Shown here: in pieces, positions 1 to 12,077 of the stretch
How the letters are laid out: every line of letters starts with the position of its first letter
Numbering within the stretch: position 1 is the stretch's first letter
From: an uncultured Saprospiraceae bacterium
GTDB taxonomy: Bacteria; Bacteroidota; Bacteroidia; Chitinophagales; Saprospiraceae
DNA: 12,614 nt
Reading direction: 5' to 3'
Assembly (NCBI GenBank): GCA_937959095.1
Contig: CALGLY010000125.1
Coordinates: 1-12,614 of the forward strand
Notes under the pieces: generated by a model
The model's input: the letters and a program-made list of their open reading frames with translations, nothing else
Databases searched by the model: none
Told to the model about the DNA's origin: nothing
Translations under genes and position numbers: made by a program

Positions 1-3000
1 TTTGCACCTGTTTGTATTTCTAAATTATAGGTTTCAAAATCAGATGCACAACTCGCATCTTGTACGATGGAGAAGTTAGGAGCTGCTGCTTGTGTGATGC
101 TTGCAGTTCCTATGCTTTCACAATTATTAGTATCTGTTATCGTTACGCTATAATTGCCAGTTCCTACTTCTATTGCGTTAGTTGTTTCGCCTGTAGACCA
201 TTCAAAACTCGCGCCTACGCTTGCGGTCAGTGTTGTAGTTGCTCCAGCACAAAGGCTCGTTGCTCCAGAAATAGAAGCTGGATTATCAGCAAATGCTGTG
301 ACGGTAGTAGAGGTCGTATTTTCGCAACCATTTTCATCGGTAACCGTTAGCATATATTCTCCTATTCCAACGCTAATATTTCGTGTTGTTCTACCATTCG
401 ACCAAGCATAGCTTGTTGCTTCATTGGCAATCAAAAGTGCTTCCGTACCAACACAAACTTCGGATACGCCTGTAATGCTTGCTTGTGGCAATTCATTCAT
501 AATCAAGCTCACCGCAGTACGCGAACTTTGGCAACCATCTGCTGTAGTTATTTCTGCAAAATAGGTGCCTGCTGCGGTTGGTGTGAAGCTTGCTCCTTCT
601 CCTAAGAAAAGTCCATCTATATCCGAATCGAACCAACGAATTTCGGATAGTTCATCACTACTTACACTTAGACTAGGAAAAGCATCCCCTCTACAAATTT
701 CCATATCGCCACTACTTATAGGAGCTGCTATTTGTGGGCAATTGCAATCGGGTGCATTGAAGTTTTGTATAAGTTCGCAACCCGCTGTATTGGTAATCGT
801 AATCGTTACAGGAATATCTGTGGTAATACCTGTGATACTGAAAATGCCATTTGTTCCACTTACGTCTCCTAGACTTGCATCTAAGGTATTTCCAGCTTCT
901 GTAGTAATTCCTAAACCATAAGTCTCTCTATCATCTGAACATTCCAAATCGGTAGAGAGTGTAAGGCTTGGGATGGCATCTTCACCAACGCTTGCTGTTG
1001 CTATACTTTCGCAACCTCTCGCATCTGTTACCGTCACACTATAATCACCTATGCCTACATTCACTTGATTGCTTTCTGCAAAATTGCTCCAAGTATAAGT
1101 CGCTCCTTCACTTGCCGTAAGTACCGTATTCTCATCAGGACAAACTAGTAATACCCCGCTAATGCTTGCTTCTGTAACGGCTAGTTCGCTTATGCTTTCT
1201 TCGTCTGTTGCGGTACAGCCGTTTGCATCCGTAATGACGACGCTATAAGTACCCGCACCGACTTCTATACGTTGTGTTGTTGCACCATTCGACCAAGCAT
1301 AGCTGCTTGCACTCCCTGCATCGAGTTCTGTTAGTCCGTCAGGACAGACTTCTGTAGCTCCTACAATATTTGCGGTAGGTGGCTCATTTATCACAAAATT
1401 GAATGCAGTACGTGGGCTAGTACATTCATTATTTATATTAAAAATTTCAGCAAAATACATTCCTGCCGTACTCGGCACGAAATCGAAACCAACTTCGATA
1501 GCAGTGCCGCCATTTGCCATATTATACCAGCGAATTTCGGAATCCGAATTTACGCCTGCTGGACGCACACTTAGCGTAGGTATCGCATCGCCTGTACAAA
1601 TTTCTATGTTTGTTTCACTCGCCGTTTGTGGTGCTGCTACTTGAGTGCAACTACAATCGGGTGCATTCACTAACTGCTCTGAGAAACAGCCTGTGGTAGA
1701 ATCTGTCACACGCACAGTCACTGGAATGTTTTTGGTGACATTCGTTATCGTAAATGTTCCATTACTTCCCGATACATCCCCTAGGGTTGTGCTTAATTCA
1801 CCATTAGTATCTGTTGTAATTTGGAAGCTGTAAGTTTCTAAATCGTCGGAACATTCTACTAAACCATCTACGAGTGTAAGGCTTGGTAGCGCATTTTCGA
1901 TTACTTCTACCGTAGCAATATCATCACAGCCATTCGCATCCGTCACAGTCACACTATAGTCCCCTATCCCTACATTCACTTGACGACCTTGACCGAAGTT
2001 ACTCCAATTATAAGTCGCCCCTTCGCTGGCAGTAAGGACTGTATTTTCATCGGGACAAACGACTAATTCACCGCTAATACTAGCGTCCTCTACGGCAAAT
2101 TCACTTATGGTTTTAGTATCTGTATCAAAACAGCCATTCGAATCCGTAATCGTGACGGTATAAATTCCTACACCTACTTCTACGCTCGGGCTGATTGCGT
2201 TTCCTGCATTCGATGACCAACTGTAACTTTCTACACTTCCTGTATTAATACTGGCATTTAATTCTACTAAACTATTCGGACAAGCCTGATTTGCTCCTGT
2301 AATCGTTGCCGTTGGAATATCATTAATTACTAAGCGTACTTCTGTTCGCGGACTCTGACAATTGCTCGCTATATCTACGATTTCTGCAAAGTACGTCCCT
2401 GCAACAGTAGGTGTGAAGTTTAGACCTGTCTCTAGCACTGTATTTCCTGTCGCGCTATTGTACCAACGCACTTCCGAATCAGCACTCACCCCTGCTCCAC
2501 TTACGCTTAATGTTGGTATTTCATCCCCTGCACATATTGCTTCATCGCCGATGCTTTGTGGTGCGGCTACCTGTGGGCAACTGCAATCGGGTGCTTCAAA
2601 GGTTTGCCTCGTTTCGCAGCCTGCCTCATTCATCACCGTGATAGTGATAGGCACAGCGGTATCTACTCCGCTTATGTTGTAGAATCCACCGCCACCGCCT
2701 AGTATACCAGAACTTGGTGTTATTACATTCGGTGCTTCGGTATTGATGCGTAAACTATAAGTCATTCTGTCTTCGGAACATTCTAGTAAGCCATCCACTA
2801 GTGTTATGCTTGGTAGTGCTGCTTGTGCTACTTCTACGGCATCAATGCTGGTACAGCCATTGCCATCCGTGACCGTCACGCTATAGTCCCCTATCCCTAC
2901 ATTCACTTGACGACCTTGACCGAAGTTACTCCAATTATAAGTCGCCCCTTCGCTGGCGGTAAGTATTGTCATTTCATTGGGGCAGACAACTAATTCGCCT

Positions 3001-6000
3001 GTAATGTTAGCGGCTGCCACTGTAAATTCTCCTACTGTTTTTGTATCTGTAGAAATACAATCGTTTTCATCAGTAATCGTCACAGTATAAATTCCTGGGC
3101 CAACTTCTACGCTTTGACTAAGTGCATTTCCTGCATTCGATGACCATTCATAACTACTTACATTACCTATATTAATACTTGCACTAAGTTCCAAAGTAGT
3201 ATTCGGGCAAGCTTGATCTGATCCTGAAATCGTTGCTTCAGGAATGTCATTAATAATCAGTCGAATTTGTGTGCGTGGGCTTTTGCAATCATCTTGTGTA
3301 TTTACTATTTCTGCAAAGTAAACACCTTCGGAAGACGGCATAAAATTAACTCCTGTACCTATCGAATTGCCTTCTGTTGCAGTGGTGTACCAATGTACTT
3401 CTGTGTTTTCGCCCAGCCCTGCATTCCCTACACTTAGATTCGGAATAGACTCGCCAAAGCAAACTTCTACATCGCCAAGGCTTTGTGGTGCAGATATGGG
3501 CTCGCAACTACAATCAGGGGCGGGTATGGTTTGAGTAATTCTACAACCTGCTGCATTCGTAACTACAATGGTAAGTTGCGTATTTTCAGGAACATTTGTT
3601 ATATTGAAAAAACCTCCATTACCACTTATAGTTCCTTCACTAAGAACTGGCATAGCATCCGAATCGGTAGAAATAGATAGTGAATAACTCTTTCGGTCAT
3701 CAGAACATTCTGGATCAGAAGTAATCATAAAGCTCGGATCGGAGCTTTGTGTTACCGTTCTCGTAGCCATACTTTCGCAGCCATTACCATCCGTTACAGT
3801 GACGCTATACGTACCTGCATCTACTGTTACTCTATCGCTTTGTGCAAAATTGCTCCAATTATACATCGCGCCTTCACTAGCAATAAGTGTCGACATTTCA
3901 TCGGCACAAATTTGTAAGTCGCCGCTTATAGTTGCCTCTTCTACTACATATTCAGTGACTGTTTCACTTGCTATTGCTTCGCAGTTATTGTTATCTGTAA
4001 TGGTTACGCTATACATCCCTTCCCCTACTATCACACTTGGACTAATTGCATCATTAGCATTGGAAGACCAACGGTAGGTGTTATTCGGATTTCCTGCATT
4101 TAGCGTTGTTTCTCCATCTGGGCACACTCGTAGTGTCCCTGTAATAGTTGCTGTAGGATTGGGATTAATTATTAATTGAACTGGCGTGCGCGGGCTCTTG
4201 CAATCACTTTCTGTATTGATTATTTCTGCAAAATAGGTACCTGAGCTAGTGGCACTAAAACTAAATCCTGTCGCAATAACATCTGTACCCGTGGCATCTC
4301 TATACCAACGGACTTCTTCTGTATCTACATCAATAGTAGCACTCACACTCAAGGGCGGAATAGGCATTCCCATACAAACCTCAACTGGATTTCCTGCCGA
4401 AGGTGCAGTAATCATAGGACACTCACACTCTGGTGCTGCGATGAATTGTTGCACGCTACAGTTGGCAGCATTCGTAATTACGACTGTAATGCTTTGCCCT
4501 GCTGGAATATCACGTACTATATATTGACCACCATTCACCGATGGCACGCCAATACCTCCATTTACCATTATGGTGCTACCCGTTTCGGAGTTTACTACAG
4601 CCGTATAGGTTTGTAAATCTTGAAGACAAAAAGTAGTTGGCGTATCAAAAATACTAGGAACTGCGGTTTCTGTAATGATATGCGTATCGGTGCTTTCGCA
4701 ATTATTATCATCGGTCGCAGTGACAACATATGTTCCTCTTCCTACATCGATGCTGCTGCTAGTTGTAGTAGCATCCCATCGGTAATCCGTCGCGCCGCTT
4801 GCTGTAATGGTTGTGATTGTACCTTCACAAATTTGGGTTGCTCCATTAATACTTACTTGCGTAGTTGGGAAAGTACCAATAGTCTCACTAGCCATTGCTT
4901 CGCAGCCTTCGCTGTTTCTCACTGTGACACTATATGTGCCAGCTCCTACGTCAATACTAGGTGTTATTTCATTATTAAAACTCCACCTAAAGGTGCTTGT
5001 GGTGCTATTATTATCTACGGCTGTTATTGTTGTAGTTTCGTTTTCGCAGACATTGGTTATGCCATTGATTTGTGGACTTGGGGCAGGATTGATAATTAAT
5101 TGAACTGGCACTCTAGCACTTGGACAATCATTATCTGTATTATAAATTTCAGCAAAATACGTGCCTGCTATAGTTGCATTCAAATTCGGGCCAGATGCAA
5201 TAGACATACCGCCAGCAGCTTGATTGTACCAACGAATTTCTAAAGCTGCATCGCCTCCTGTTCCACTTGCACTCAAAGGAGGAATAGGTGCGCCATCACA
5301 TATTTCTACATTGCTACCAATAGAAGGCGCGCTGATGTTAGGGCAACCACAATCGGCAGAGGGAATGGTAAGAGTATTGCTACAGCCATTATCATCCGTC
5401 ATAGTCACTGCTATATCGGTGCCTACGGGTATGCCTAAAATAGCAAAATCGCCATTCCCTGTACCTATGATAGTTGAGGTAGGACTGACGCTTATATTAT
5501 TTCCTACTTCACTCCTCACGGTTACTTCATATTCTTCAAAGCTATTGCCTGAACAATCCGCAGGAATAACTATAGTAATTGTTGGTTTTGGATTGACATT
5601 TACGGTAACTGTTTCGGTAGCTTCGCAATCTCCATCGCCTGTAATCACGACGCTATAGACTGTAGTCATGTTAGGACTAACGGTAATACTTGGACTCGTT
5701 GCGCCTGTATTCCAACTATAGCTATTGCCACCTGTGGCCGTAAGGGTAACAGCAGGATCGCCTTCACAGAGGACTTGGTTGTTTGTAATCGTTGTTGTTA
5801 ATGAACCGCCTGTGGTGAGTTGGATGGGAACACGAGTACTGGTACAAACATCTGGCGGAGGTAATTCTGCGGTAGCGGCATAATACGTACCTACAATACC
5901 TGGATTAAAACTACTGCCTACTCCTATAAAATCTTCGGGATCGCTGGTAGGAGAATCATACCAAAAAATTTCTAAATTATTGGCAGCCGTAGCATTTAAT

Positions 6001-7667
6001 ACGGGAAACTCCCCACAAGGTGCATCCGAAAGCGAGACCATTGGTGGTTGTGGAGCTGTTGTTACAATAACTACAACCTCTAATTCTGAAATACAGCCCG
6101 TTTGATCATCAATTACATTTAAAATATAAAGTCCTTCACTAGCAGCAGTAATATTAGGAATGTTTACGGTTCCATCCGTACCAGTAAAAGCTGCGGGAGA
6201 GTTATTTGGGAAAACCCACTCAAATTCATAGGTACCTGGGTTTTCAGGACGGGCATCTAGCGTAAGCGATTCCCCGATGCAGGCGATATAATCTTCTTCT
6301 CCTTGTATTTGCCCTGGTCCATCTTCTATAACTACTAAAAACTCTGCTTCACTAAAACAGCCTGTATCTGGGTCTTCTACAATCACAAAATAAAGCGCCT
6401 CTCCCGATTCTTCAACCCTTCCAAAATCTAGCCGATCTTCATTTATTCCTGATAATATGGTATTCCCATTTTCATCTGTCCAAGTATAATCATAGTCATC
6501 ATCACCTTGCGGTCTAGCACGTAATTGTACGCGTTCTCCTGTACACTCAAATACATCATCATTAGGTACTCGCCCTGGCCCGTCTAATACTTCTACAAAA
6601 GCAAATTCTGGATCTTCTGGTTCGCAAGGAGCATTAGGGTCGACTACAAATACTCCATAAACTCCTTCATCATCCATATCTAGAGTACCCAAATCGAATT
6701 CATCTTCACCTGCTCCTTCTAGTATAGTATTGCCACTTTCATTTATCCAGGTATAATAAAAATCTCCTTCGGCATCCGTACTTTCTGTTCGCGCTCTCAA
6801 TCTTCCTCTTTCTCCAGCGCAATCTACCACCTCACTTAGACTCACTCTTCCTGTACCTCCTGCTGCTACGGTTACGAAAAATTCAACTAATTTAAAACAA
6901 CCATCGCTATTCTGCACCTCAACGGCATACAGTCCTGAATCTGAAATTTGAGCATCATTAATCCTATACTGATCATCTGTTGCACCAGGTATATTATTAC
7001 CACTGCTATTGAGCCATTGATAGGTTTCGCCTCCTTGTGTGCTACTAAGTCGCAAACGTACATCGTCTCCTTCACAAGCAAGAATATCTTCTTCTTGTGC
7101 ACGCGCTGAAATGCCTTGTCCTTGTCCTTCTATAATGATTTGTTCGATACAAAGCTGTTCGGTTTTTTCTTGTGTTCCTATTTGTATATCAATGTTTAAT
7201 CGATCTCCTGTAACAGGAAGTACTGCTACTATCGCCTCGCTATAAAAAGTACCTGTCGGATAATCAGTCTCACTCTCTGATTCTCCACCAGAGGATATAC
7301 GGACTCGAATTCTATCCGCGCCACACTGCCCTTGTCCTTCAAAACCTACATCGGCTGTACCTACTGCAACTACTGTAACGATAACCGTACAAAAATCTGA
7401 AACGTCAATATTATTAATACTATACGAACTGCTATTGTCTCCTGAGGTAGAAGGTCCACAGTTCATGCAACCACTTCCTTCCAAATCCGTAACACAAAGC
7501 GACCCTCCGAAAGTGACCGTATTCCCATCCCCACAATCTCTTTCATCGAAATTTCCGGCAGAAAAGGAAGAAATCGTTTGGATAAGTGTCTGTCCACTCA
7601 ACAATAAAGTACAACAACAAATAAAAGTGAAGGATAGAAGGGTTACTTTTACAGCAAAACGCATCAT
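1..7667 (-). CDS. Giant secreted Ig/SprB-repeat adhesin-like protein, 5' part (C-terminus beyond the left edge)
   Basis: This is an open frame of 2555 codons from ATG at 7667 to the left edge; I found no in-frame stop, and repeat landmarks stay in phase throughout. An adjacent second ATG (7664) is an equally possible start. Order from the N-terminus: signal peptide (1-26), Cys-containing beta-rich domain (about 27-175), four Ig-like domains (about 190-541), an Ig-like plus SprB-like leader (about 543-694), then a 308-residue super-repeat copied six times plus part of a seventh. Recurring motifs are RWYN, GTYFAEI, WSNG and YSVTVTDxNGC; the last is typical of SprB repeats, named after the Flavobacterium gliding adhesin. 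No membrane segment was seen after the signal peptide. Proteins of this design are normally exported by the type IX system through a C-terminal domain, which would lie outside the window, so that route is inference. The likely role is surface adhesion, gliding or matrix function; the ligand is unknown. Confidence 0.93.
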   Translation of the reverse strand, partial: MMRFAVKVTLLSFTFICCCTLLLSGQTLIQTISSFSAGNFDERDCGDGNTVTFGGSLCVTDLEGSGCMNCGPSTSGDNSSSYSINNIDVSDFCTVIVTVVAVGTADVGFEGQGQCGADRIRVRISSGGESESETDYPTGTFYSEAIVAVLPVTGDRLNIDIQIGTQEKTEQLCIEQIIIEGQGQGISARAQEEDILACEGDDVRLRLSSTQGGETYQWLNSSGNNIPGATDDQYRINDAQISDSGLYAVEVQNSDGCFKLVEFFVTVAAGGTGRVSLSEVVDCAGERGRLRARTESTDAEGDFYYTWINESGNTILEGAGEDEFDLGTLDMDDEGVYGVFVVDPNAPCEPEDPEFAFVEVLDGPGRVPNDDVFECTGERVQLRARPQGDDDYDYTWTDENGNTILSGINEDRLDFGRVEESGEALYFVIVEDPDTGCFSEAEFLVVIEDGPGQIQGEEDYIACIGESLTLDARPENPGTYEFEWVFPNNSPAAFTGTDGTVNIPNITAASEGLYILNVIDDQTGCISELEVVVIVTTAPQPPMVSLSDAPCGEFPVLNATAANNLEIFWYDSPTSDPEDFIGVGSSFNPGIVGTYYAATAELPPPDVCTSTRVPIQLTTGGSLTTTITNNQVLCEGDPAVTLTATGGNSYSWNTGATSPSITVSPNMTTVYSVVITGDGDCEATETVTVNVNPKPTITIVIPADCSGNSFEEYEVTVRSEVGNNISVSPTSTIIGTGNGDFAILGIPVGTDIAVTMTDDNGCSNTLTIPSADCGCPNISAPSIGSNVEICDGAPIPPLSASGTGGDAALEIRWYNQAAGGMSIASGPNLNATIAGTYFAEIYNTDNDCPSARVPVQLIINPAPSPQINGITNVCENETTTITAVDNNSTTSTFRWSFNNEITPSIDVGAGTYSVTVRNSEGCEAMASETIGTFPTTQVSINGATQICEGTITTITASGATDYRWDATTTSSSIDVGRGTYVVTATDDNNCESTDTHIITETAVPSIFDTPTTFCLQDLQTYTAVVNSETGSTIMVNGGIGVPSVNGGQYIVRDIPAGQSITVVITNAANCSVQQFIAAPECECPMITAPSAGNPVEVCMGMPIPPLSVSATIDVDTEEVRWYRDATGTDVIATGFSFSATSSGTYFAEIINTESDCKSPRTPVQLIINPNPTATITGTLRVCPDGETTLNAGNPNNTYRWSSNANDAISPSVIVGEGMYSVTITDNNNCEAIASETVTEYVVEEATISGDLQICADEMSTLIASEGAMYNWSNFAQSDRVTVDAGTYSVTVTDGNGCESMATRTVTQSSDPSFMITSDPECSDDRKSYSLSISTDSDAMPVLSEGTISGNGGFFNITNVPENTQLTIVVTNAAGCRITQTIPAPDCSCEPISAPQSLGDVEVCFGESIPNLSVGNAGLGENTEVHWYTTATEGNSIGTGVNFMPSSEGVYFAEIVNTQDDCKSPRTQIRLIINDIPEATISGSDQACPNTTLELSASINIGNVSSYEWSSNAGNALSQSVEVGPGIYTVTITDENDCISTDTKTVGEFTVAAANITGELVVCPNEMTILTASEGATYNWSNFGQGRQVNVGIGDYSVTVTDGNGCTSIDAVEVAQAALPSITLVDGLLECSEDRMTYSLRINTEAPNVITPSSGILGGGGGFYNISGVDTAVPITITVMNEAGCETRQTFEAPDCSCPQVAAPQSIGDEAICAGDEIPTLSVSGAGVSADSEVRWYNSATGNTVLETGLNFTPTVAGTYFAEIVDIASNCQSPRTEVRLVINDIPTATITGANQACPNSLVELNASINTGSVESYSWSSNAGNAISPSVEVGVGIYTVTITDSNGCFDTDTKTISEFAVEDASISGELVVCPDENTVLTASEGATYNWSNFGQGRQVNVGIGDYSVTVTDANGCDDIATVEVIENALPSLTLVDGLVECSDDLETYSFQITTDTNGELSTTLGDVSGSNGTFTITNVTKNIPVTVRVTDSTTGCFSEQLVNAPDCSCTQVAAPQTASETNIEICTGDAIPTLSVRPAGVNSDSEIRWYNMANGGTAIEVGFDFVPSTAGMYFAEIFNINNECTSPRTAFNFVINEPPTANIVGATEVCPDGLTELDAGSASSYAWSNGATTQRIEVGAGTYSVVITDANGCTATDEESISELAVTEASISGVLLVCPDENTVLTASEGATYTWSNFAESNQVNVGIGDYSVTVTDARGCESIATASVGEDAIPSLTLSTDLECSDDRETYGLGITTEAGNTLDASLGDVSGTNGIFSITGITTDIPVTITITNTAGCELIQNFNAPDCNCPQIAAPISSGDMEICRGDAFPSLSVSSDELSEIRWFDSDIDGLFLGEGASFTPTAAGTYFAEITTADGCQSSRTAVSLIMNELPQASITGVSEVCVGTEALLIANEATSYAWSNGRTTRNISVGIGEYMLTVTDENGCENTTSTTVTAFADNPASISGATSLCAGATTTLTASVGASFEWSTGETTNAIEVGTGNYSVTITDTNNCESIGTASITQAAAPNFSIVQDASCASDFETYNLEIQTGA
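1954..2030 (-). repeat. 77-base identical tract, copy 1 (module D, fourth super-repeat unit)
   Basis: This stretch encodes the WSN-to-GDYS part of a SprB-like module and is identical base for base to 2881-2957. The copies are 927 bases apart, which is exactly one super-repeat unit. The flanking bases diverge, and equivalent segments in other units, for example around 1045-1120, differ at many positions including silent ones. Confidence 0.95.
2881..2957 (-). repeat. 77-base identical tract, copy 2 (module D, third super-repeat unit)
   Basis: Partner of 1954-2030, identical over all 77 bases and in the same position within its unit. Identity that includes third codon positions is more than protein-level selection would need and points to recent duplication or gene conversion. 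Confidence 0.95.
6045..7110 (-). other. Four tandem acidic Ig-like domains of the adhesin
   Basis: Four domains of 85 to 92 residues have their first cysteine at residues about 198, 283, 375 and 463, each in a context like xCxGExxxL. Each has a conserved Trp (YQW, YTW, YTW, FEW) and an Ig F-strand pattern such as DSGLYAV, DEGVYGV or SEGLYIL, followed by a second cysteine. The linkers contain GPG (DGPGRV, DGPGQI). The block is rich in Asp and Glu, unlike the Thr/Ser/Asn-rich array after it, which suggests a different origin or a cation-binding stalk. Domain edges are estimates. Confidence 0.8.
7140..7589 (-). other. N-terminal Cys-containing beta-rich domain of the adhesin
   Basis: Residues about 27-176 are not part of any repeat. 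They hold about seven cysteines, including a CMNC pair, and alternating hydrophobic stretches such as FCTVIVTVVAVG and RIRVRI that suggest a beta sandwich. It ends in a Gly/Gln-rich linker (EGQGQG) before the Ig block. I do not recognise the family. Its position at the tip of a long repeat stalk would suit a ligand-binding head, but that is inference. Confidence 0.5.
7590..7667 (-). other. Signal peptide of the giant adhesin
   Basis: The first 26 residues have a basic start (MMRFAVK), a hydrophobic core with three consecutive cysteines (residues 17-19), and end in LSGQ. Cleavage after Gln26 fits the habit of Bacteroidota signal peptides ending in a small residue plus Q. The Cys run is not followed by a convincing lipobox arrangement, so I read this as a signal peptidase I substrate rather than a lipoprotein. 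Confidence 0.7.
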
Positions 7668-7895: not shown

Positions 7896-8531
7896 ATGAA
7901 ACATATTTTAGTCGTAATAGCCTTTTTTTCGCTCCTAGCTTGCCAATCTAAAGTAGCTATAGAGGATATAGATACTGTGCCAGTTATCGAAAAGAACGAT
8001 GAAAAATTTGCAGATGTATTTCAACATCTAGAAGGGCAATGGGAAGGACAACTCAAAATTTTTGAAGATTTATCGCCTAGCAAGCGCGAGAAAAAGGCAT
8101 TGCAACAATTAGATATGTCTGATTTGCGAAATCCTAATTTAAAATTGCAACAAATCGCGAATGTGCAACGCAACTATCGTTCCGAAAGTCCGTATTTTCA
8201 ACGCATAGAAATTCAAGAAACCTACTACGATGAAGAAGGCAAGGAATTAGAACAACTTATCTATACAGGAGTTAATAAAATACAGAAGGGCAATTTATGG
8301 TCGGTGCTACAAGGACGCGGTGATACCCTACAACTTCGAGCAGGAAAAATAATGAACGACAAGCTTATTTCTTGGAAACGGAATGAAAAAGCCCCCTATC
8401 GGATGGATTATATAGAAGAAAAACGACAAGAAAATATACTAGAATTGATTGGATATACGTATGGGCCAGAAGATAATCCAAAATTGATGCCTCGTTTTTG
8501 GTATTATGGACGCTATGAATTGGTGAAATAG
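7896..8531 (+). CDS. Lipoprotein of unknown function (211 aa)
   Basis: The N-terminus has Lys3, a hydrophobic core and the lipobox LLAC, so Cys16 is the predicted lipidated residue after signal peptidase II cleavage. The mature part begins with an acidic linker (AIEDIDTVPVIEK), then HLEGQWEGQL near residue 45, a charged helical stretch (about 60-90), and a long run of alternating strands (RIEIQETYY, WSVLQGRGDTLQL, WYYGRYELVK). A Gly-x-Trp motif followed by antiparallel strands recalls lipocalin-like beta barrels, so a small ligand-binding barrel is possible, but I do not recognise the family. The start is the only ATG giving a full signal sequence; the upstream region is A+T-rich with no Shine-Dalgarno. 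A weak -7-like AAATTTTG lies at 7853-7860. The gene may be transcribed together with the BatC-like gene 41 bases downstream. Confidence 0.88.
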   Translation: MKHILVVIAFFSLLACQSKVAIEDIDTVPVIEKNDEKFADVFQHLEGQWEGQLKIFEDLSPSKREKKALQQLDMSDLRNPNLKLQQIANVQRNYRSESPYFQRIEIQETYYDEEGKELEQLIYTGVNKIQKGNLWSVLQGRGDTLQLRAGKIMNDKLISWKRNEKAPYRMDYIEEKRQENILELIGYTYGPEDNPKLMPRFWYYGRYELVK

Positions 8532-8572
8532 CGTTGAGTAAATGGAGAATTAAAAATTGATAATTGAAAACT

Positions 8573-9319
8573 ATGTTCAGATACCTTATTCTAGCCGCTA
8601 TCCTTATCGTAGGGAGTGGCACACTAGTAGCACAATCCGCACATTCGCTTTTTCGGAATGGCGATGCCGATTATAAAACAGGTGATTTTACAGCCGCAGA
8701 AGAAAATTATCGAAAAGGCTTGGAGCAAGAGCGTTCCTCTACAGCTACCTACAATCTTGGCAATTCCGTCTATCGGCAAGAGCGCGTAGACGAAGCCGCA
8801 CGACAATACCTAAAAGCGGCCGAAGAAGCAAAAGATGAACGAACCAAGGCACAAGCCTATCATAATCTGGGAAATTCGCTATACAGAATGGAGGATTATG
8901 AAAATAGTATTAAAGCTTTTAAAAATTCACTGCGTCATCAACCGAAAGATGTAGAAACCAAGTATAATTTGGCACAAGCACAACGCCAATATCGGATTCA
9001 GCAACAGCAACAACAGCAGCAGCAGCAACAACAAAACCAAGAGCAGGAGCAGCAAGAGCAGGATCAAGAGAATCAAGAACAACAAGAGCAGCAGCAAAAT
9101 CAAGACCAAGAGCAACAAGACCAGCAACAGCAACAGCAGTCGCAGTCTCAATCCGAAGATCAGCAAGACAAAGAGGAGCAACAGCAACAGCAGCAACAAC
9201 AAGACATGACTCGCGAAGAGGCAGAGCAGTTGCTAGAAATTGTGGAGAAAGATGAGCAAAAAGTGCAAGAAAAACTCCGCAAAGGAGGCGATAAAAAGAA
9301 GCCCGAAAAAGATTGGTAG
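8573..9319 (+). CDS. batC: BatC-like TPR protein with glutamine-rich tail (248 aa)
   Basis: The order is signal peptide (1-21, ending LVAQ), three to four TPR units (about 24-141, with motifs YNLGNSVY, YHNLGNSLYRMEDY and KYNLAQAQ), a Gln/Glu/Asp-rich tract (143-210), and a charged tail from MTREEAEQLL ending in PEKDW. This architecture and the tail, with its DExxVQEK and terminal KDW, match the BatC proteins of Bacteroides-type Bat operons as I remember them. Bat proteins (BatA to BatE) are envelope-associated and were linked to aerotolerance, though their biochemical role is unsettled; the TPR part presumably binds a protein partner in the periplasm. I start at ATG 8573; an in-frame TTG at 8564 would add three residues including a Lys (KT) and is possible. 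The usual batA, batB and batD neighbours are absent: upstream is a lipoprotein gene and downstream a gap. Confidence 0.87.
   Translation: MFRYLILAAILIVGSGTLVAQSAHSLFRNGDADYKTGDFTAAEENYRKGLEQERSSTATYNLGNSVYRQERVDEAARQYLKAAEEAKDERTKAQAYHNLGNSLYRMEDYENSIKAFKNSLRHQPKDVETKYNLAQAQRQYRIQQQQQQQQQQQQNQEQEQQEQDQENQEQQEQQQNQDQEQQDQQQQQQSQSQSEDQQDKEEQQQQQQQQDMTREEAEQLLEIVEKDEQKVQEKLRKGGDKKKPEKDW
8999..9202 (+). repeat. CAA/CAG-rich low-complexity tract encoding poly-Gln/Glu
   Basis: About 68 codons are almost all CAA, CAG, GAG, GAA, GAC or AAC, giving runs of Q broken by N, E and D. CAA and CAG are interleaved, so this is not a pure trinucleotide repeat, but length change by slippage or recombination is plausible. 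The antisense strand reads as an artificial Leu-rich frame. Confidence 0.9.
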
Positions 9320-9635
9320 AGTTGAAGTTGTGAAGTTGTTGAATTGTAAAATCGTTAAATTACTTTCATATTGTGTAGCAGAAAATAGAAGGTGATTTTA
9401 CAATTCAACAATTCTGCGATTTAAGGAAATCAGCAAAAAATAAGATTTTCTAAAATAGATACGAATCCGCTAAAAATACACGTTTCATCTACTCATATTC
9501 TTGCAGACCACCTTCAGCTTTTGAAGAACAATTAGTACATCTTTTAAAAGTTTCCTATAATTGTAGGCAAAATTACGTTCTTTATCCATTGTCCGTTATC
9601 ATAAAACTTACAATCCAACGAAAATTTCATTACTC
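9320..9635 (+). other. Intergenic region (316 bases) without a recognised gene
   Basis: The region lies between the BatC-like gene and the second lipoprotein. I see no convincing reading frame, tRNA or known RNA family. The first third has short-word A+T-rich sequence (GTTGAAGTTGTGAAGTTG) and the inverted repeat at 9334-9413. The rest (about 9425-9635) is A+T-rich and should hold the promoter of the downstream lipoprotein, but no good TAnnTTTG with a spaced TTG is present; TATAATTG at 9556-9563 is the nearest match, with one mismatch. Confidence 0.6.
9334..9413. repeat. Long-looped inverted repeat downstream of the BatC-like gene
   Basis: GTTGAATTGTAAAATC (9338-9353) is the exact reverse complement of GATTTTACAATTCAAC (9394-9409). 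Outward pairing continues through 9334-9337 with 9410-9413 (three pairs and one G-U), giving arms of about 20 bases around a 40-base loop. The arms are A+T-rich and no U-run follows, so a simple intrinsic terminator is not the best fit. A palindromic intergenic repeat element is an alternative. Confidence 0.75.
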
Positions 9636-10205
9636 ATGAAAAAATACTTAGTGCTGTTTATAGTCGCTTTAATTTGTTTTTCTTGCGACACCACTTCTAA
9701 AAGTAAAAGCACAAATCAAAAGGCATCAAACGGGAAAACGATGTTCACGCACGACCTCAGAAGACAAATTGAGGAATTCGGTGATATTAAAAAAGTTCAG
9801 TTTTTCACTACCCGTCGTATTAAGATGCGTCGAATAACTTCTACGGATGGCGTAGAAATTGCAACAGATGGTACTATCGTAGTGAAAGAAGGGGACTACG
9901 AAGAATCTATTACTCTAGAAAAAGATCTACCGGGTGTTTGTGTTTCTGCGCTAGAAGATAGATTGCATATTAGCTTCAGTGATGGCAGTTACCTGATTTT
10001 CCGAAAGGATTTCATGGGTACTTATAGTCTACTCGTGGAGCGCGATATGCGTGGCGTAGCCCGTGTCCAATACGGCACAGAATCCTACCAACTGCAACCA
10101 GGTAGTGATGAAGCAAAACTCGCCATTGCGAAAACTTTCAAGAAAGAAGATGAAGGCGATGAGCGCGTAGAATCGGGAAGAAAGATAGGCGGAAGCGGGG
10201 AGTAG
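9636..10205 (+). CDS. Lipoprotein of unknown function (189 aa)
   Basis: The N-terminus MKKY, a hydrophobic core and CFSC give predicted lipidation at Cys17; the -3 residue is Cys and the -2 residue Phe rather than the classic Leu-Ala, so the lipobox is acceptable but not perfect. A Ser/Lys/Thr-rich linker (18-35) follows, then a helix (about 38-50, HDLRRQIEEFGDI) and a beta-rich region (about 52-155) with strands such as KKVQFFTTRRI, LHISFSDGSYLIF and SYQLQ. The last 30 residues are charged and Gly-rich, probably disordered. I do not recognise the family. The ATG at 9636 gives the full signal sequence and there is no Shine-Dalgarno. The gene appears to stand alone: a 316-base gap precedes it and a convergent gene follows, with a stem-loop 12 bases after its stop codon. 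Confidence 0.88.
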   Translation: MKKYLVLFIVALICFSCDTTSKSKSTNQKASNGKTMFTHDLRRQIEEFGDIKKVQFFTTRRIKMRRITSTDGVEIATDGTIVVKEGDYEESITLEKDLPGVCVSALEDRLHISFSDGSYLIFRKDFMGTYSLLVERDMRGVARVQYGTESYQLQPGSDEAKLAIAKTFKKEDEGDERVESGRKIGGSGE

Positions 10206-10217
10206 TGAGAAGGAGAA

Positions 10218-10262
10218 AAAATGAGAGGGTGAGCTTTAAAAAAAATACCGCCCTCTCATTTT
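10218..10262. terminator. Bidirectional stem-loop terminator between convergent genes
   Basis: AAAATGAGAGGG (10218-10229) pairs perfectly with CCCTCTCATTTT (10251-10262) around a 21-base loop that contains an A-run. The site lies between the stop of the plus-strand lipoprotein gene (10205) and the stop of the minus-strand Omp85 gene (10281). On the minus strand the A-run at 10215-10220 becomes a U-tract right after the stem; on the plus strand the stem ends in TTTT. Both directions therefore fit an intrinsic terminator, better for the minus strand. Confidence 0.75.
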
Positions 10263-10280
10263 CTCACCATCTCATTTCTC

Positions 10281-12077
10281 TCAAAATAAACTCACATAAC
10301 CAAAATGTATCTTCGGATTCCGCAAATTGAGCGGACTATCTGCCCGTTGCCCGACGGCTAAACTAATACCAAATACCCCAACGCCCGTCTCCAAGGTCAA
10401 TCCTGCACCGAAACCGAGTGCATTATTCACCAAGTCTCGTTCGTTGGTCGCATCGCGTATCCAAGCATAATCTGCGAAGGCATAGAAATACGAATTGGTA
10501 CTAATCAATAGGCGTGGCTCTAGCGTGAAAAGGGAATATTGCGTCGCTAAGACCGACTGTTCATCAAACCCCCGCAGTATTTTATTGCCGCCTATTCGGA
10601 ATTGCTCATTTTGTAGAATGGGTTTATTGGAAAAAATAAACTGGCTTTGATTTTGAAGCTTCAAGGTGGCGCGTTTTCCTAATGGCAGGTAAGTCGCTAA
10701 AGTCGCGCCGAGTCCATATTGAAAACTATTCAGAGCAAGACTATCATAAAGACTTTGAAAATTAGTTTCATCATTGGAAAGGGCTATAATTTGATTATTA
10801 ATTTCAATATTTTTTTGCCCTGCGCTACCGCGCAAAAATAAGCTCCAACCTTTACGCGGATTGAAGCGATAATCCAACGCTTGTTGATAATATTCCAAAC
10901 CAAAAGCAGTGCGCTGATAATCCAAATTTTCAGGCAAACGTCCTTGCTGCCGAACACGAACGGTATCCACATTCAGCAAGTCCGAGCTTTGCGTATTCCA
11001 GAACGCTTTCAGATAATTGCCGCCTTCCAAAAGATATTGCACGCCCAAGTCCGAAGCCACTTCGAGCAAGGTAGTGTCTTGTTTATAAATCAATAATTTG
11101 CCATCCACGCCAAAGGGCAAATTGAGAATGTAGGGATAATTGACCGATAAATTCAAGCGCGGCGTAGCGGGGCGCAATTGCTCCAATTCCACTAAAAGCT
11201 GTTCGCCATAGCCAAAAGCATTGTAGAATTCGCCTTTCAAATCACCTGTTAGCGTGAAGCTTGTCGTTTGCACCGTTCCATTCGTTATGGTATTGGGTAG
11301 CACCCCTACGATGAAGTCAAAGCGGCTTGCTTTTTTAGGTTTTAAATATAAGTTAATGACCGCACGCTCGCCGTAGAACGTCACGTCCACAGGCTTTTCT
11401 TCTTCCACAAAAGGCAACTCTTGTATGCGCTGCCGTATCCGTAGAATTTTCGATTTATTGTACGGTTCATCAGGTAGAATGCCTAAGTAGTTTTCGAGAT
11501 ATTTTTTGGAAAGCTCGACTTTGCCCTCTACATAAATCGTGTCTACTATGATGAGTTGCCCCTTGTCCATTACTAGAGCTGCTTCTACTTTTCCTTCTTT
11601 TATTGAAATGCTATCCAATTGGGTTTTAGCAAAAGGGAAACCGTTGTTTTCTGCTTCCGTCAGTAGCTTATCTTGCAGTTGGCGGACGCGCTTTATTTGG
11701 AGCGGTTTCGCGCGATATAGTTGCTCCCGGAAACCTGCTTTGGTCAGCCATGCTTCATCTACATTGCCATTGCGTAGGTCTAGCCACTCATAAACATCAC
11801 CCACATGTAGGAGTGCGAGATAAGTAGAGCTATCTTTTAGTAAAATACTATCTATAGAAGCGGCAAGGTAGCCTTGTTGCTGTAAGTTTTTTGTCAAAGT
11901 CGCCAAGGTAGTGGTGAGACTTGGCGTATCTTCGATGCTTGTAGGAATTTCTACTTTGTTTTCTAGGAAATTTTCGGGTTTGTCTAGGGGAAGGATTTGT
12001 AGTTGGGTTTGGGCGGTGGTGGAATGAGTAAAGCACAAAGCACAGAAAAAACTTATATTTTTCAAAAAACAAAGCAT
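10281..12077 (-). CDS. Omp85/BamA-TamA-type outer-membrane beta-barrel protein (598 aa)
   Basis: A signal peptide (about 1-23, ending TTAQ) is followed by a POTRA-like periplasmic part. Two less clear units cover about 50-98 and 99-172; the clearest covers about 174-247 and contains VDTIYVEG, a helix with SKKYLENYLGI, a second helix with ILRIRQRIQELPF, and the strand AVINLYLKP. The C-terminal beta-barrel runs from about 250 to 598. It holds GGNKILRGF (496-504) with the RGF motif conserved in the Omp85 barrel lumen, then YFYAFADYAW (530-539), a Gly-rich strand (GFGAGLTLETGVGVFG) and a final Phe typical of outer-membrane barrels. At 598 residues it is shorter than five-POTRA BamA (about 800), so it is more likely an accessory Omp85 protein that inserts or exports a subset of proteins than the essential BamA. 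It starts two bases after the stop of the TPR-like gene upstream, which suggests coupled translation. Confidence 0.9.
   Translation of the reverse strand: MLCFLKNISFFCALCFTHSTTAQTQLQILPLDKPENFLENKVEIPTSIEDTPSLTTTLATLTKNLQQQGYLAASIDSILLKDSSTYLALLHVGDVYEWLDLRNGNVDEAWLTKAGFREQLYRAKPLQIKRVRQLQDKLLTEAENNGFPFAKTQLDSISIKEGKVEAALVMDKGQLIIVDTIYVEGKVELSKKYLENYLGILPDEPYNKSKILRIRQRIQELPFVEEEKPVDVTFYGERAVINLYLKPKKASRFDFIVGVLPNTITNGTVQTTSFTLTGDLKGEFYNAFGYGEQLLVELEQLRPATPRLNLSVNYPYILNLPFGVDGKLLIYKQDTTLLEVASDLGVQYLLEGGNYLKAFWNTQSSDLLNVDTVRVRQQGRLPENLDYQRTAFGLEYYQQALDYRFNPRKGWSLFLRGSAGQKNIEINNQIIALSNDETNFQSLYDSLALNSFQYGLGATLATYLPLGKRATLKLQNQSQFIFSNKPILQNEQFRIGGNKILRGFDEQSVLATQYSLFTLEPRLLISTNSYFYAFADYAWIRDATNERDLVNNALGFGAGLTLETGVGVFGISLAVGQRADSPLNLRNPKIHFGYVSLF

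Follow-up and report, generated by a model that had tools for sequence, protein, structure and literature searches.

The window, a stretch of 12,614 nucleotides (nt) from an uncultured Saprospiraceae bacterium (assembly GCA_937959095.1), is the entire contig CALGLY010000125.1 (C125); the genome to which it belongs is fragmented, at 857 contigs, and 74% complete. The closest relative of its TypA (encoded on contig C853 of the assembly) is 80% identical and comes from a Saprospiraceae metagenome-assembled genome, which places the bacterium in this family or near it. A single minus-strand open reading frame starts at an ATG at 7667 and is still open at base 3, after 2,555 amino acids (aa). It stops there because the left edge is the contig end, and the giant repetitive protein that it encodes (3..7667) therefore lacks its 3' end. 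The frame holds a regular array of four-domain units, here called A-B-C-D. We consider it likely that the window carries the N-terminal part of a giant cargo protein of the type IX secretion system (T9SS), with a rod of ABCD units, a CHU_C end and an adjacent PorP/SprF gene.

Modules were delimited with hidden Markov models (HMMs). Along the protein they read B-D and then (ABCD)x6, followed by 16 aa of a seventh unit. Unit 1 occupies 4665..5594, unit 2 3744..4664, unit 3 2820..3743, unit 4 1896..2819 (A 2577-2819, B 2322-2576, C 2100-2321, D to 1896), unit 5 981..1895 and unit 6 87..980, all on the minus strand. The linker and first residues of A of unit 7 (3..86) were recognised from the translation and by comparison with contig C236 of a same-genus genome (G002). 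Measured from the first cysteine of one A to that of the next, the units are 309, 307, 309, 309, 304 and 297 aa long; HMM borders give 310, 307, 308, 309, 305 and 298 aa, so that the overall range of 297-310 aa shifts with border placement. At the DNA level there are three copies of a 300-nt stretch (spacing 915 and 927 nt; the outer copies are 65 and 77% identical to the middle one) and four copies of a 177-nt stretch (spacing 915, 927 and 924 nt; 69-76%). Scored with an HMM of the other five, each unit gave 277-422 bits, against 2.8-8.0 bits for the best of 200 shuffles per unit. Identity between adjacent units peaks in the middle of the array (units 3 and 4, 62%; 4 and 5, 56.5%) and falls towards its ends (1 and 2, 42%; 2 and 3, 45%; 5 and 6, 47.5%); the units are thus similar, not near-identical. 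All units share ten invariant cysteines, four of them in A and two in each of the other three modules, which may form disulfides. An earlier note on this DNA had described a highly regular super-repeat in fixed A-B-C-D order in a giant surface protein. The super-repeat is real, with six complete units that score far above shuffles and a seventh begun, and the surface-type assignment was supported. Its copy number was rightly taken as a lower bound, the frame being open at the contig end and continued in the same-genus contig. The motifs quoted for module A were present in looser form than claimed, the exact forms being confined to units 5 and 6 for ECSxDxETY and to units 4 and 6 for APDCxCP.

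The head of the protein lies upstream of the array on the same strand. The first ~25 aa (7593..7667) are hydrophobic and, read by eye, form a likely signal peptide. They are followed by an N-terminal region (aa ~26-190, 7098..7592) without a Pfam match and by about four immunoglobulin (Ig)-like repeats (aa ~191-540, 6048..7097), seen by eye as a fourfold repeat, in which one Ig_3 match (aa 192-253) scored 22.2 bits, below the cut-off of 30. The module HMMs then found a diverged, Ig_7-like module B (5817..6002) and a D-like module (5598..5795). These two modules (5598-6002) and the Ig-like repeats had gone unmentioned in the earlier note. On another contig of the same genome (C166, locus L038) the start of a plus-strand frame (2083-4221) is 72% identical to aa 11-267 of the window protein. 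That protein then continues into leucine-rich repeats (LRRs, by eye), giving a shared head on a different stalk.

Module B was assigned to Ig_7 (PF19081; E 3.7e-72, 239.1 bits over seven stretches, cut-off 27.3). Modules C and D group together in module comparisons and look PKD-like, from matches to PKD_6 and K319L-like PKD below the Pfam cut-off. They had previously been called SprB-like, a label that failed in the window array: none of 54 SprB (PF13573) matches in the genome lies on C125, and six single window C/D modules gave none up to E 10 with the HMMER filters on. It could apply only further along the protein, towards its C-terminal end, if contigs C683 and C322 (below) are rightly linked to it; SprB repeats there scored 58.1 and 46.4 bits, over the cut-off of 28. 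Module A had been left without a family name. This was borne out: a search of the whole protein against Pfam and NCBIfam assigned nothing above cut-off to the window copies, and three single copies gave DUF5979 as best Pfam match (15.4 of 25 bits). Among 39 diverse copies, 20 families appeared at E 0.1 or better, each in at most 4 of the 39, the best being Peptidase_A4 (E 1.2e-4, one copy) and CarboxypepD_reg (E 1.9e-4, four copies). Structures were predicted with AlphaFold for the unit (unit 4, with six window units; mean predicted local distance difference test 89.4, predicted template modelling score, pTM, 0.56) and for module A alone (88.7 and 0.74, seven strands). In these models A is predicted to be an Ig/fibronectin type III (FN3)-like seven-strand sandwich, and fold searches placed it among Ig/FN3/cadherin-type sandwiches with no clear nearest relative.

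Module A is followed directly by B in all six window units, in 59/67 cases among 120 listed homologs of unit 4 (of 3,135 over threshold among 7,986 scored) and in 70/77 cases among 30 loci of the order, which are the best A matches there, own genome included. The claim that A always directly precedes the Ig-like module therefore holds as a strong rule and not as an absolute one, exceptions with A before C or D being found within the genus on contigs C210 and C479. In the 30 loci, A was followed by B directly 70 times, by a gap 7 times, and was the last detected module 14 times; B was followed by A 53 times, by C or D 11 times, by a gap 4 times and by B twice. Since B is mostly followed by A, (AB)n is the usual form in these loci. 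In a sample of 248 genomes of the order, from each of which up to 22 candidates were scored, the A profile matched in 62 (E 0.001 or better). The A+B profile matched in 61 of 296 genomes sampled across the phylum, most listed matches covering the B half only. By the A HMM of this analysis, A is carried by 10 of the 120 listed homologs. Among these 120, tandem ABCD or ABDD units were found in proteins P0001-P0003 and a single ABCD in P0035. Units of four modules in tandem are present in G000, G002 and P0002; of the A-bearing loci examined elsewhere in the order, most have (AB)n. Contig C688 of the own genome (L037) holds ABD and ABCD units, then Ig_7-like modules and LRRs, in a frame open at both ends. 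The A-B pair is thus a recurring building block of which one half is without a Pfam name. The broad kind of protein is known; domain A is the part without a name, and ABCD is a four-module variant of the common (AB)n array.

The history of the array was followed in C236, which is collinear with the window protein from aa 1298 to the window end and starts after units 1 and 2, leaving these without a counterpart. Units 3, 4 and 5 match their positional counterparts best (62, 69 and 70%, against 60, 60 and 57% for the best neighbours in their own protein). Unit 6 is 59% identical to its counterpart over 292 aa. A wider comparison omitted units with X, by which the C236 counterpart of unit 6, beside a run of N, was dropped; the best matches of unit 6 were then P0001_9 and C236a_3 (53%). 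The N run, near 4537-4693 of C236 (L042), has seemingly the same sequence on either side and is perhaps a scaffolding artefact. The collinear best matches indicate that units 3-6 are older than the split of the two same-genus species. In the paralog P0001, units 1-4 are 72-88% alike, which shows that recent amplification occurs there. A long repeat array can therefore stay fixed between species while a paralog holds units up to 88% alike. Among 40 units of the window and related arrays (leaving out units with X or with gaps of at least 14 aa between modules), third modules were nearest to third modules in 40/40 cases and fourth to fourth in 39/40, and the distances of the four modules correlated (r 0.51-0.68, p 0.001). 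In the six window units, C and D distances agreed significantly (r 0.82, p 0.002); for the five remaining pairs of modules r was 0.22-0.38 (p 0.10-0.19). The fixed order had been taken to show that whole units, not single domains, were amplified. With only the C-D pair significant in the window, order alone is no proof that each copy arose as one block; the 40-unit tests point to whole-unit duplication as the main mode, with some mixing of modules possible.

The likely C-terminal end was sought on other contigs. Beyond the point where the window ends, C236 continues for ~1,220 aa in looser units (ABDD, ABD, AB), and its frame, too, runs off the contig at the 3' edge. Two further contigs, C322 (G002) and C683 (own genome), carry frames open at the 5' edge that are counterparts of each other (56% over 958 aa, rising to 70.6% in the last 635 aa). 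At their ends CHU_C was found with 34.8 and 37 bits (cut-off 27). Directly beyond the C322 frame lies a PorP/SprF gene (105 bits, cut-off 90.55), and at the end of C683 such a gene begins, with 69 aa present (83% identical). Modules of these two contigs were compared with a pool of 12 other array sequences, counting matches outside C683 and C322 themselves. The nearest module lay in the C236 tail for 7/7 A and B modules of C322 and 8/8 of C683, and, with C and D counted, for 9/11 and 10/15, together 19/26. A variant of module B, W[YLF]D..GN, is present in three copies in the C236 tail, two in C683 and three in C322, and in none of the other 10 of 13 array sequences tested. From these sequence comparisons the window gene probably continues into a C236-like tail and ends like C683 and C322. 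The complete protein would then probably exceed 5,000 aa, at least about 5,230 aa (2,555 + about 1,220 + 1,449) if C236 and C322 do not overlap.

The own genome contains at least 122 TIGR04183 and at least 22 TIGR04131 matches (17 of the latter over cut-off); SprA is present as two pieces, each scoring above its cut-off. A T9SS is indicated by these cargo matches together with SprA, and the protein is probably exported by it and held at the surface. Passages of PMC9143113 describe PorP-like proteins as binding type B cargo and suggest them as anchors, SprB and SprF being one such pair. On the favoured reading, the signal peptide would be followed by the N-terminal domain, about four Ig-like repeats and then many small beta-sandwich domains strung together in units of four, with A lacking a name, B belonging to Ig_7 and both C and D resembling PKD domains. 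This chain would continue for well over 1,000 residues more and end in a type B-like T9SS signal (CHU_C). The PorP/SprF outer-membrane barrel encoded next door could keep the C-terminal end attached to the cell surface, in the way suggested for the SprB-SprF pair, and a stiff, cysteine-stabilised rod would present the N-terminal domain and hold a binding domain at a distance from the cell. The role of the protein is likely that of a long adhesive or capture rod.

Several points weigh against this. No overlap, bridging contig or read was found that joins C125 to C683, and the link between them runs through module similarity to C236. In the reverse test, 8/19 C236-tail modules were nearest to C683 or C322, five to the window and six to other proteins. 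The window's own B modules do not have the W[YLF]D..GN variant. The earlier note had proposed a check for a T9SS C-terminal domain. None lies within the window, where the frame is open and any such signal must be outside; on the likely C-terminal contigs CHU_C is over its cut-off and TIGR04131 below (21.3 bits on C683 and 23.6 on C322, cut-off 35). GldM scored 111.7 of 180, below cut-off. The unit pTM of 0.56 and the root-mean-square deviation of 17-19 Å in long superpositions on GhpA, the solved relative described below, mean that we can only infer a straight rod, and ligand binding and adhesion are putative. Other array proteins of the genus also end otherwise, P0012/C210 with a type A tail (PF18962) and C688 with LRRs (by eye). 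It is accordingly conceivable, if doubtful, that the window gene ends in a type A signal, an LRR block or with no export signal, and that C683 is part of another gene. Such ends or contents in the sister proteins C210 and C688 and the missing physical link speak for this, and the nearest-module and variant-motif results, which tie the C236 tail to C322 and C683, speak against it.

A second alternative is that the product is a gliding adhesin, a mobile SprB-type protein driven along the cell surface. It shares with the favoured reading the likely type B-like signal and the adjacent PorP/SprF gene, an arrangement that passages of PMC9143113 report for sprB/sprF, and it would accord with the SprB repeats on the likely C-terminal contigs and with SprA in the genome. 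It is unlikely, given a window array without SprB match and the low GldM score (the gliding genes sought were SprA and GldM only); with 22 TIGR04131 matches in the genome, moreover, the motility adhesin need not be any particular one of them.

Four neighbouring genes lie at window 7896-12077, encoding a lipoprotein-like, a TPR (tetratricopeptide repeat)/BatC-like, a second lipoprotein-like and a BamA/Omp85-like protein. Their order is kept in contig C246 of G002 (52, 77, 89 and 79%), which stops just short of the expected start of the giant gene. The TPR/BatC-like protein contains a Q-rich low-complexity stretch (window 8999-9139).

The best solved relative of the unit, by Foldseek and by sequence profile (E 1e-87), is GhpA, grappling hook protein A of Aureispira sp. 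CCB-QB1 (PDB 9flp, 9flw and others). The unit profile matches it mainly through its C/D columns, with 12 of 26 printed segments extending back into B columns. GhpA had no match up to E 10 with the A, B or A+B profile, a missing profile match being no proof of absence, and none up to E 1 with the single sequence. Matched stretches recur at ~249 residues in GhpA, compared with 308 in the window units. On 9flp_A, unit-profile matches at 1790, 2038, 2288, 2537 and 2789 suggest a super-repeat of GhpA's own. The GhpA entry has 5,898 residues, compared with the more than 5,000 aa estimated here. Passages of PMC11205867 describe ixotrophy hooks as a heptamer of a T9SS-secreted protein. That several copies of the window protein form a similar hook, catching prey or flagella, fits the similar inferred size and a best relative from a Saprospiraceae genus, but it is quite improbable, because the match is mainly to C/D, modules of a kind that most of the 120 giant homologs listed also carry, the A, B and A+B profiles and the single sequence miss GhpA as stated, and no VipB/TssC (type VI secretion system) match was found in the 74% complete genome, an uncertain negative whose control rang only in E. 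coli. The GhpA match nevertheless offers a solved structure against which a capture-fibre role of such giants could be tested. A bolder proposal, which we rate as a long shot, is that A founds an unnamed cysteine-rich Ig-superfamily domain paired chiefly with Ig_7, and that the ABCD unit serves as a ready-made component of capture fibres of the grappling-hook kind in bacteria other than Aureispira, across several paralogous giants in one genome.

With SprB/SprF of Flavobacterium johnsoniae, as described in passages of PMC9143113, the window protein would share, if the link to the C-terminal contigs holds, the character of a highly repetitive giant adhesin, a type B signal and an adjacent PorP-like gene. 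It differs in that its window modules are not PF13573 repeats, some of which are held by C683 and C322. The Ig_7/CHU_C-associated Bacteroidota repeat proteins P0001-P0003, P0007 and P0009 share with it tandem arrays of AB, ABCD or ABDD, and CHU_C (PF13585) is among the Pfam domains of all five.

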